A stretch of DNA of 64,000 nt from an uncultured Ruminococcus sp. GTDB taxonomy: Bacteria > Bacillota > Clostridia > Oscillospirales > Ruminococcaceae. The DNA is taken from positions 1-64,000 of the forward strand of contig CADALT010000012.1 of NCBI GenBank assembly GCA_902788785.1, written 5' to 3'. Shown here one piece after another: positions 12,889 through 45,879 of this stretch. Below the pieces are notes generated by a model. It was not told the DNA's origin and searched no databases. It saw only the letters and a program-made list of their open reading frames with translations. Position 1 is the first letter of the stretch; every line of letters begins with the position of its first letter. A program made the position numbers and the translations under genes.

Positions 12889-12902
12889 GCCCCCACGGGA
12901 TA
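12889..12902 (+). repeat. left half of split pgm terminator stem
   Basis: GCCCCCACGGGATA begins 19 nt after the pgm stop. It is complementary, with one C-A mismatch, to TATCCCATGGGGGC at 13941-13954, which is followed by TTTT. Together they would form a 14-bp intrinsic terminator, but the cassette now separates the halves by 1038 nt. Confidence 0.85.
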
Positions 12903-13000
12903 AGACGGATACCCATATAGAAGTTTTGCCCCAAAGCGTTTATGCGCTTAGGGGCATTATATTATATTTTATACGGTTGCTAAGATAAATCAGAATTTGT

Positions 13001-13798
13001 CTATTTCAGTTTCTTAATAAAATCCAGTATTCTTTTGTTCACTACAGTAGGATTATCCACATTAGAATTATGTGCTGCGCCCGAGATCCAGACCAATGGA
13101 TATCCAGTACGCCGTGCCCACTCTCTATTGTATGCTCTTACTTTTCCGGTAGTATCTTTTTCGCCAACAACCAGAAGAACCGGACATGAGATTTTGCACT
13201 CTCTGTTGTCATTCATAAAACCAGCGTATCCAATACCCATGAGGTGGCAAAGTTCTGCTTTGTTATATGGTTCAATCATGTTTACCATGTTTTCTCGCCC
13301 ATTTTCTGTCAAGGCGTTTTGCTTTGCCATAGAAGACTTAAGAAGTTTCTTCGGAAACAACTTGGACATCCATTCAATCTGCTTAAGCCACCAAATGTCA
13401 GATTTTGAATAATACTCACCATACGGACAAGAGTCTATAGACACAAAAGCCTTTACCATTTGTGGAAATCTGCAAATAAAAGCTTGGGCGATGAACCCAC
13501 CCATTGACTGTCCAATTAACACGACTGTCGAAATTTTATTTTCATCAAGTATTTTCTTCAATCCATTCGCAGCATTTTCATAGGTGAAATCCTTGTATGG
13601 TCGTGATTCTCCGTGTGCAGGAGCATCCCACGCAATGATATTGTACATCCCCTCAAAAAAGGAAAACTGCTGTTCAAACATAGTATGATTTGCGGTCAGT
13701 CCATGAAGGAAAAATAGGGTGTCTCTGGACATGTCAAATACATCCGATTTCCAATAAACGATTCTCCCTATTGAATCATCAATTGTCCCTTTTTGCAT
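13001..13798 (-). CDS. alpha/beta hydrolase (cassette cargo)
   Basis: 265 aa alpha/beta-fold hydrolase. The oxyanion segment is FLHGLTANH. The nucleophile elbow is GQSMGG (about residue 91), the acid lies in VVGEKDTTG, and the histidine in SGAAHNSNVDNP. This order is typical of small esterase or epoxide-hydrolase-like enzymes. No signal peptide is seen. ATG start after AAGAGGT. Base use is visibly more A+T-rich than in the flanking housekeeping genes, consistent with acquisition. It is the only gene in its cassette and runs from the cassette promoter. The substrate is unknown; detoxification or quorum-signal hydrolysis are possibilities only. Confidence 0.8.
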   Translation of the reverse strand: MQKGTIDDSIGRIVYWKSDVFDMSRDTLFFLHGLTANHTMFEQQFSFFEGMYNIIAWDAPAHGESRPYKDFTYENAANGLKKILDENKISTVVLIGQSMGGFIAQAFICRFPQMVKAFVSIDSCPYGEYYSKSDIWWLKQIEWMSKLFPKKLLKSSMAKQNALTENGRENMVNMIEPYNKAELCHLMGIGYAGFMNDNRECKISCPVLLVVGEKDTTGKVRAYNREWARRTGYPLVWISGAAHNSNVDNPTVVNKRILDFIKKLK

Positions 13799-13838: not shown

Positions 13839-13867
13839 ATTATAGCATAACATTGCTGCATTGTCAA
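13839..13867 (-). promoter_or_regulatory. cassette 1 promoter
   Basis: TTGACA (13867-13862), 17-nt spacer ending TGC, TATAAT (13844-13839): perfect hexamers with extended -10. It starts 7 nt past the 39-nt hairpin. The same arrangement occurs in cassette 2. Confidence 0.92.
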
Positions 13868-13940
13868 TAAAAACGCCATAGTACTTCTGACTGTAGATCA
13901 GAAATACCATGGCTTAAAACTTCTATATTAGCATAGCACG

Positions 13941-13958
13941 TATCCCATGGGGGCTTTT
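13941..13958 (+). terminator. right half of split pgm terminator with T-tract
   Basis: TATCCCATGGGGGC followed by TTTT. It is the partner of 12889-12902. It is unlikely to work as a terminator while the left arm is more than 1 kb away. Confidence 0.75.
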
Positions 13959-45159: not shown

Positions 45160-45174
45160 AAAGACCGTTCGGTA
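45160..45174 (+). repeat. left half of split hydA terminator stem
   Basis: AAAGACCGTTCGGTA, 12 nt after the hydA stop, pairs over all 15 positions (two G-U) with TGCCGAGCGGTCTTT at 45861-45875. The right half is followed by more Ts. The halves are now 686 nt apart. Confidence 0.87.
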
Positions 45175-45249
45175 AAAGGGCGGTGCTGATATAGAAGTTT
45201 CTCGCCATAGTATTTCTTATGTCAGGTCAGAAGTACTATGGCGTTTCTA

Positions 45250-45278
45250 TTGACAGTACTTCGATGTTGTGATATAAT
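45250..45278 (+). promoter_or_regulatory. cassette 2 promoter
   Basis: TTGACA (45250-45255), 17-nt spacer ending TGA, TATAAT (45273-45278). Downstream AACATAGATCG matches AACATAAATCG in cassette 1. Confidence 0.93.
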
Positions 45279-45322
45279 TTTCACTAACATAGATCGGTTT
45301 TTTATGATCGGAGGATACGGTT

Positions 45323-45763
45323 ATGTTCAAATTCTTACTGCAAGAAATCAGCAACAAGGAAAAAAGCACAGAGCGCATTGCCTATCTCGAACAGAAATAT
45401 GGGATCACTTTTCCGGATATTCTTCGACAACTTTACGCAAAAACAGACAGCAGCAAAATGCATCTATGTGTATTTGAAATAGATGGATTTCAATTTGAGG
45501 TCTGGCAACTTGTACCGCTGGACGGAGATAAATTCAATTTTGAATTTATTGCAGATGATGACAGGGATGAATGCTTTGAAGGTATGTTTGACGACTGGTA
45601 TCCGCTTGCATACGATCGGGGTGCTGCAACATATTATTGGAATAGTAAGACACACGAGATCTGTTTCGTTATAGACGGAATGATCGAAGAATCTGCTGAT
45701 ATATGTAACAGTATAGAGGAATTTATCGAACTTCTGAACGATTCTATCGTTGAAGGACAATAG
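45323..45763 (+). CDS. SMI1/KNR4 (SUKH)-family protein (cassette cargo)
   Basis: 146 aa. The early segment YGITFPDILRQLYAKTD and the later YPLAYDRGAATYYWNSKTHEICFVIDG fit the SMI1/KNR4 fold, with a final helix EEFIELLNDS. Many bacterial SUKH proteins are immunity factors against nuclease or other polymorphic toxins, but no toxin gene is adjacent. GGAGG lies 8 nt before the ATG. The gene is A+T-rich relative to hydA. An orphan immunity role is inference. Confidence 0.75.
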   Translation: MFKFLLQEISNKEKSTERIAYLEQKYGITFPDILRQLYAKTDSSKMHLCVFEIDGFQFEVWQLVPLDGDKFNFEFIADDDRDECFEGMFDDWYPLAYDRGAATYYWNSKTHEICFVIDGMIEESADICNSIEEFIELLNDSIVEGQ

Positions 45764-45860
45764 ATCGTTAAATTCTGTTTATCTTAGTAACAATAAGTAC
45801 AATGCCCCTGAGCACTTTGAAATGCTCAGGGGCAAAACTTCTATATGAGTATCTATTTAA

Positions 45861-45879
45861 TGCCGAGCGGTCTTTTTTT
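45861..45879 (+). terminator. right half of split hydA terminator with T-tract
   Basis: TGCCGAGCGGTC followed by seven Ts. It is the partner of 45160-45174 and lies just outside cassette 2. Confidence 0.78.

Follow-up and report, generated by a model that had tools for sequence, protein, structure and literature searches.

The 64,000-nucleotide stretch of DNA from an uncultured Ruminococcus sp. analysed in this study (the window) carries two copies of a gene cassette. Most copies of this kind consist of a standard chassis placed in the loop of an intrinsic terminator, with a 2-bp core repeated at both ends and no loss of target at comparable sites. Sequence comparisons support the view that these units form a modular mobile gene-cassette family. 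We propose, with a probability of about 0.77, that they are non-autonomous single-gene cassettes, which would be circularised and integrated in trans into terminator loops by large serine recombinases (LSRs) of the TnpX/DUF4368 type. The first-pass annotation had called the family undescribed and, in agreement with this, our search of the open-access literature brought up neither a report of cassettes like these nor one of serine recombinases that target terminators.

Whether the cassettes amount to a serine-recombinase counterpart of the integron is, in our judgement, an even bet. In such a system, a shared expression-ready chassis would serve dozens of accessory genes, the bidirectional terminators of the host would be the landing sites, the cassettes' own hairpins would restore termination, visiting recombinase elements would spread cassettes between species, and the terminators of a genome would form a dispersed cassette array. 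It would give the fibre-degrading bacteria of rumen and gut a further route of single-gene cassette sharing, beside the integron and IS-based types, would offer a target rule (a terminator loop plus a matching 2-bp core), and would explain small orphan genes that recur behind unrelated genes. It also draws attention to serine recombinases with terminators as insertion sites for cargo; these sites are probably fairly harmless, and such enzymes would be useful genetic tools for Clostridia that are hard to engineer.

Two cassettes in the window

The gene upstream of the second cassette (cassette 2) was identified by Pfam as a [FeFe]-hydrogenase gene (hydA), and the flanks of the cassette are the two arms of its terminator. 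As shown in Table 1, cassette 2 is a complete unit between two AA dinucleotides and comprises, in order, a half-site, a 39-nt hairpin, a promoter, a leader (AACATAGATCG), a SUKH-1 gene, a post-stop segment, a GCCCC hairpin, and an inverted half-site. By chance, 0 hairpins like the 39-nt one were expected (100 shuffles). When the flanks were joined with one copy of the core (AAAGACCGTTCGGTA-AA-TGCCGAGCGGTCTTTTTTT), they folded at -22.2 kcal/mol (z -6.5), which bears out the proposed insertion into the hydA terminator; the stem contains 14 pairs rather than the 15 given initially. All of the named parts were located, together with a second copy of the plan at 13954-12889 on the minus strand (cassette 1). 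The end motifs noted at first are also present, but the true half-site is longer (27 nt including the core), and cassette 2 is bounded by the AA cores. Cassette 1 has an identical plan with an alpha/beta hydrolase gene as cargo. The terminator that it interrupts, GCCCCCATGGGA-TA-TCCCGTGGGGGC, has a phosphoglucomutase gene on one side and a dockerin gene on the other.

Table 1. Features of the two cassettes, in positions of the window
Feature	Position	Strand	Evidence or remark
Cassette 2: left arm of split hydA terminator (putative attB half)	45160..45174	+	pairs with 45861-45879 when cassette is left out
Cassette 2: left putative crossover dinucleotide AA	45175..45176	.	equals right copy
Cassette 2: left putative recombinase half-site, 12-nt spacer AGGGCGGTGCTG + ATATAGAAGTTTC	45177..45201	+	consensus over 53 elements
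Cassette 2: 5-prime hairpin, 39 nt, then T-rich stretch	45204..45242	+	z -6.9
Cassette 2: promoter TTGACA-17-TATAAT	45250..45278	+	12/12 consensus matches, sigma-70-type
Cassette 2: cargo, 146-aa SUKH-1 (SMI1/KNR4) protein, immunity-protein type	45323..45763	+	Pfam PF09346, E 1.6e-11
Cassette 2: conserved post-stop segment TTTATCTTAG	45778..45787	+	alignment of copies
Cassette 2: 3-prime GCCCC hairpin	45803..45834	-	minus-strand terminator score; z -5.3
Cassette 2: right putative recombinase half-site, AAAACTTCTATAT + spacer GAGTATCTATTT	45834..45858	-	
Cassette 2: right putative crossover dinucleotide AA	45859..45860	.	
Cassette 2: right arm and T-tract of split hydA terminator	45861..45879	+	
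Cassette 1: left terminator arm GCCCCCATGGGA	13943..13954	-	
Cassette 1: core TA and left half-site	13916..13942	-	
Cassette 1: 5-prime hairpin	13875..13913	-	
Cassette 1: promoter	13839..13867	-	
Cassette 1: cargo, 265-aa alpha/beta hydrolase	13001..13798	-	Pfam PF00561, E 7.8e-20
Cassette 1: 3-prime GCCCC hairpin	12928..12956	-	
Cassette 1: right half-site and core TA	12901..12927	-	
Cassette 1: right terminator arm TCCCGTGGGGGC	12889..12900	-	

The 3-prime hairpin scores as a terminator from the right, and a T-rich stretch comes after the 5-prime hairpin, so that transcription from either side may again be terminated by the chassis; in cassette 2, the 5-prime hairpin may end transcripts arriving from hydA. 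More tentatively, the two chassis hairpins would replace the broken termination, and each cassette would be an added expressed gene of low cost to its neighbours. A hydA match was found in 26 of the 29 genomes of the genus, and the sequence downstream of hydA was read at 14 of the 15 loci tried, with plain terminators in close relatives. No exact empty site of cassette 2 was found at the 14 hydA loci read, the relatives being too distant.

Copies and cargo

Chance as the source of the shared plan was excluded when the 5-prime module was compared by BLAST with the window's genome (E down to 3e-54). This search gave 21 matches at 17 distinct places, four matches being antisense self-matches of the hairpin; the 3-prime module gave 16 matches at 13 distinct places, after one antisense match and two matches to the end motifs only were dropped. 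Several contigs of this genome terminate in cassette copies. The genome scan suggested in the first-pass annotation was carried out with module searches, and copies were found in 22 of the 29 genomes of the genus, with a maximum of 24 matches in R. albus 7. Covariance-model searches detected the cassettes in 32/297 genomes and 15/126 genera of the family, and, at E 1e-5, in 7/394 genomes of the order, one of them outside the family; these counts are lower bounds, as the best 12 (family) or best 9 (order) candidates were scored per genome. The exact 5-prime pattern occurred in at least 114 stretches of named genomes; among 80 matches listed, 71 were labelled Ruminococcus or Oscillospiraceae and one was a Succinivibrio MAG. 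This pattern had no match in viral contigs, and among plasmids the 5-prime module matched two R. albus 7 megaplasmids only.

The promoter was kept in an alignment of 14 copies, with two shortened exceptions. When sizes were compared, 52 of the 53 confident cassettes measured 0.4-1.2 kb, and one measured 2.1 kb. Tandem or fused cassettes were seen at L010 (~1480-2180), L327 (1371 and 2070), and G117:C28 (2923 and 3666). At L010, the right half-site continues directly into the hairpin arm of the second cassette, a junction that suggests a deletion between neighbouring cassettes. R. albus 7 also contains cargo-less elements of ~250 bp with similar half-sites and a long internal hairpin (L104, ~1876-2130 in minus-strand reading; L106, 1466-1710), which are perhaps a MITE-like companion family.

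The modules are not confined to the two genes of the window: by protein homology, the 52 cargos of the 53 confident elements fell into 38 groups. In a hand-picked sample of 29 cargo proteins scanned with Pfam, 21 had a match at 1e-3. These matches included six GNAT acetyltransferases and the immunity types SUKH, WapI and YezG, with Imm43 slightly below its cut-off, as well as a methyltransferase, a hydrolase, a PfkB kinase, an S66 peptidase, a dCTP deaminase, an HD domain, a PNPOx, a CAAX-type protease, a phosphoribulokinase/uridine-kinase-like kinase, an APH-fold kinase, and a DUF. The longest cargo ORF was listed for 47 elements. In three R. albus 7 cassettes (L051, L052, and L060), an ORF runs from the ATGGC of the 5-prime hairpin arm in frame into the cargo (MAFLLT...CYAIIVTNINR), spanning promoter and leader; this may be chance or a readthrough fusion.

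Boundaries, target sites and movement

Cassette boundaries follow one rule, in which each of two inverted half-sites consists of the 2-bp core, 12 nt, and then ATATAGAAGTTTT. When 98 loci were parsed, 60 left-right pairs were obtained (38 loci gave none, owing to contig ends or to missing or degenerate ends), and the core dinucleotide was equal on both sides in 46 pairs and unequal in 14. Shuffling gave a mean of 30.8 equal pairs and a largest value of 39 in 10,000. Among pairs with three or fewer mismatches per end, the core was equal in 44/47. Another 20 loci, drawn from other genera, yielded 21 pairs, one locus having none; 11 had matching cores, as did 9 of the 11 confident pairs. Taken together, the core was equal in 53/58 confident pairs, one of which (L218) represents a site for the second time; AA accounted for three of the equal cores and TT for two. 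The five mismatches were L056, L203, L217, L316, and L317. AT/AT cores were found at L211 and L101, outside this count.

When a cassette was left out of the sequence, a terminator was usually regained, with the core in its loop. The joined flanks of the 53 confident elements had a mean stem score of 11.1, compared with 6.6 for mispaired flanks, and a T- or A-tract was present at 44 of these sites. At a threshold of 6, the stem test did not discriminate, as 65% of mispaired flanks passed it too, and it was replaced by comparison with the 95th percentile of mispaired flanks, which 37/53 joined flanks exceeded. The survey thus agreed with the first-pass annotation in placing copies elsewhere in terminators as well, yet 16/53 sites did not exceed the control. 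One site (L051) is not a terminator and lies in front of a gene. The target has no strong consensus; on both sides, positions 5-11 from the core are G/C-rich and positions 13-21 are T-rich, a composition that is, as judged from base content, the picture of a bidirectional terminator.

Evidence for movement came from empty counterparts, which were found for 6 of the 24 joined sites, in at least one relative each (8 genomes searched); five of the six are terminators, and the sixth is L051. No footprint of lost bases beyond ordinary differences was seen at these counterparts. The counterpart of L178 reads TG at the core, and that of L172 has a one-base gap beside the core; the empty-site evidence is slightly weaker because one counterpart lacks the core. 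Moreover, a cassette carrying a dCTP deaminase gene (Pfam) occupies one terminator in opposite orientations in R. albus KH2T6 and AR67. The two copies are identical at 753/766 positions, and their flanks match (290/300 and 277/302) only when one side is inverted. The spacers move with the cassette, and therefore the break is at the core and not inside the repeats. When 67 parsed elements, including loosely paired ones, were compared, they formed 53 whole-element groups, and 18 of 20 similar cassette pairs were at unrelated sites, several of them in different genera (identities of 747/762, 545/557, and 638/654). The diversity of cargo groups, these near-identical cassettes, the terminator targets, and the empty sites all uphold the modular mobile family first proposed from two copies.

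Alternatively, the cassettes might be relics of old date that owe their spread chiefly to vertical descent and homologous recombination, with the terminator sites as survivors of selection. Cargo could have been swapped when shared 5-prime and 3-prime modules recombined by homology, and a catalytic serine recombinase domain was not found over the cut-off in the window's genome or in two cassette-rich genomes (see below), which would favour this account. We consider this account very improbable, as near-identical cassettes lie at unrelated sites across genera, empty sites exist, the R. albus inversion falls exactly at the core, and the cores are centred in hairpin loops rather than being anywhere intergenic.

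Serine recombinases and known mobile elements

The end-motif search of R. albus 7 also matched the ends of larger elements, two of which carry LSRs, one of them truncated. The half-site motif (three or fewer mismatches) was found 24-48 nt, mostly 33-36 nt, after LSR stop codons. For phylogenetic analysis, 59 of 77 sequences were used, namely those that extend into the C-terminal part and have 370 aa or more; L148 was removed by hand. The tree contained a clade of 36 (support 100/100) in which 29 had the motif, including 19/19 of a subclade; outside the clade, the motif was found in 2/23, both at 3 mismatches. LSRs of this clade contain the Pfam domains Resolvase, Recombinase, Zn ribbon, and DUF4368, and the best match to a solved structure was TnpX (2mhc). 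An LSR group ~55-60% identical (L118-L120, L144, L149-L153, and L285) is without the motif.

Genome G144 contains the most clear-cut partner of the cassettes, a 16-kb element (L295, 1947-17944) with an intact 543-aa LSR, ends of AGGTCGGTACTC-ATATAGAAGTTTT, the core TT on both sides, and cassette-like spacers at both ends. Its flanks rejoin to the terminator AAGCCCGGCTG-TATTCG-CAGTCGGGCTT. By reading, its upstream gene is uracil phosphoribosyltransferase-like, and putative defence genes are aboard (an OLD-like ATPase beside a UvrD-like helicase, and a large helicase/methylase protein). A terminator on pRUMAL01 is likewise occupied by an element of ~8 kb that carries mobC and a truncated LSR. 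In LSR elements with both ends nameable, the cores agreed in 8/8, a count in which L098 and L099, 24 kb apart, were paired by assumption and the weak, non-matching second end of L300 was left out. The cores of LSR elements are mostly TT or AA, and those of cassettes mostly TA; beyond the half-sites, no sequence common to cassettes and LSR elements was noticed. At L306 of G133, two different left ends (701 and 11465) lie 10.8 kb from each other and have the terminator flank in common, which looks like the tandem entry of two elements into a single terminator. L113 and its kin form a motif-bearing LSR subgroup with another spacer and a recurring coding-like target, and therefore not all motif-bearing LSRs target terminators. 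L114, L115, L116, L145, L277, L278, and L304, of the same LSR clade, have similar CCGGGGTTATCGTT-like flanks in several genomes, which are coding-like and not terminators.

On this basis, we propose that the inverted half-sites of a cassette would be the two halves of an attP for TnpX/DUF4368-type LSRs. The LSR would come from an island or plasmid element, either resident or visiting, and would excise the cassette as a circle, re-forming attP; it would then integrate the circle at terminator-like palindromes (attB) with a centre matching the core. Because TA is its own complement, a TA core would allow either orientation. No circular form of a cassette was seen.

Occurrence of recombinase and cassettes was compared across genomes. 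In the family, cassettes were present in 8/20 genomes with an LSR match of at least 60% identity, among the matches listed, and in 24/277 others (p 4e-4). In the genus, a motif-adjacent LSR was found in 9/22 cassette carriers and in 0/7 non-carriers (p 0.05), the best LSR match of each of the 7 cassette-free genomes having been examined. A wider genus correlation (13/22 against 0/7, p 0.007) was set aside in favour of 9/22, as it overstates the case owing to the ~55-60% identical LSR group without the motif. In genome G203, with at least 12 cassette modules, a single serine recombinase exceeds the Pfam cut-off, and it is of the motif-adjacent type.

The recombinase sought at the suggestion of the first-pass annotation was thus found in part of the cassette-bearing genomes, but in some cassette-rich ones no catalytic domain was found. 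PF00239 (the catalytic serine recombinase domain) had no match in the window's genome (G000; 90.6% complete) or in cassette-rich G312, and no match over the cut-off in cassette-rich G117. A sub-threshold PF00239 match in G117 was rejected as a divergent recombinase, since it reads as a chemotaxis-receptor-like protein. PF07508 had no match in G000 or G117. C-terminal LSR matches were present in G000, G312, and G117; the match in G000 is a piece of 195 aa, distant in type (31% identical), without the motif, and cut by a contig end. This piece weakens the objection from the window's own genome, whose recombinase may be missing or distant. Given cassette-rich genomes in which no catalytic domain was found, the model requires that the enzyme visits these genomes, that assembly failed to capture it, or that there is a second mover. 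The earlier proposal of movement in trans gains indirect support from the lack of a recombinase among the 29 cargos scanned and from half-sites that match those of one LSR clade, but a whole enzyme was not found in several cassette-rich genomes.

These genomes would also suit an unknown enzyme acting on single-stranded hairpins (integron-integrase-like or Y1-type), for which the LSR half-site match would be coincidence or shared target-preference ancestry. The targets are indeed hairpins, and the cassettes have hairpins near both ends. Nevertheless, this alternative appears hardly probable, since most of the clade has the 13-nt motif downstream of the LSR gene with little variation in distance, LSR elements with the same ends lie in terminators, and the 2-bp core is variable yet matching, all of which are marks of serine recombinases.

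Among known elements, those of the Tn4451/TnpX type are most relevant to LSR-mediated movement of the cassettes. The available text of PMC5704250 describes a 2-bp core and low specificity for Tn4451, and that of PMC10083194 describes multi-targeting LSRs with DUF4368; in its main text, the word 'terminator' does not occur. Cassettes resemble Tn4451/TnpX-type elements in a recombinase clade with cassette-like half-sites, an identical 2-bp core, and many targets. However, these elements encode their own LSR, whereas no recombinase was found in the scanned cargos, and cassettes carry one cargo gene on a fixed expression chassis common to all. The most fitting place for the cassettes is probably among TnpX-type elements, as non-autonomous derivatives of these.

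Integron cassettes, too, are small and consist of one gene each, with accessory cargo of many kinds, and a site-specific recombinase moves them in trans. Their gene is promoterless, and their attC is moved by the tyrosine integrase IntI into attI. The present cassettes are similar in being small, in carrying one gene each from a diverse set (acetyltransferases, immunity proteins, hydrolases), and apparently in being moved in trans. In contrast, they have their own promoter (12/12), two half-sites instead of one attC, and sites scattered in terminators rather than stacked behind attI, and therefore they are not members of the integron class; their recombinase is also probably of the serine type. 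CIMEs are decayed islands, whereas the cassettes have a shared chassis, dozens of cargos, and LSR half-sites. Like the cassettes, CIMEs, as the available part of PMC5704250 has it, are elements with ends and without their own enzyme.

It is also very unlikely that the cassettes are mobile insertion cassettes (MICs) of a DDE-transposase IS of the IS1595, IS630, or IS1182 type, which would recognise the terminal inverted repeats and prefer terminator hairpins. MICs depend on IS transposases; an IS1595-type MIC has ends in common with an IS1595 element and an 8-bp duplication, and to our knowledge an IS630/mariner-type MIC always duplicates TA. In contrast, the cassettes repeat neither 8 bp nor an invariable TA, but a 2-bp core that differs between copies (TA, AA, TT, AT). 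The finding of AA/AA, TT/TT, and AT/AT cores led us to drop an IS630-type reading, which would require duplication of TA. Moreover, the enzyme-bearing elements with these ends, among those examined, carry an LSR. The inverted repeats, cargo, and terminator targets do resemble those of TnSha1/IS1272 (IS1182 family, staphylococci), which, in the part of PMC4923244 available, is directed to terminator hairpins and shows no primary sequence specificity, has a cargo gene, and occurs in both orientations at one site. According to the same part of PMC4923244, the IS1182-family transposase inserts IS1272 bluntly and deletes part of the hairpin stem, whereas the empty counterparts here keep the hairpin, and no deletion of this kind was found at the 5 terminator sites with an empty counterpart. 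By analogy, IS1272/TnSha1 may be regarded as the nearest target precedent, with a different chemistry.

A transposase of IS1595 type does occur inside one cassette of R. albus 7 (L049), which would favour an IS-based origin, and it was considered as the cassette's own enzyme. This candidate was rejected. The element (L049:477-1352; G002:C5 ~1,375,500-1,376,350), whose family was confirmed by Pfam, is an IS1595-type IS with its own terminal repeats, different from the cassette ends, and an 8-9 bp target duplication, and it merely interrupts a GNAT cargo.
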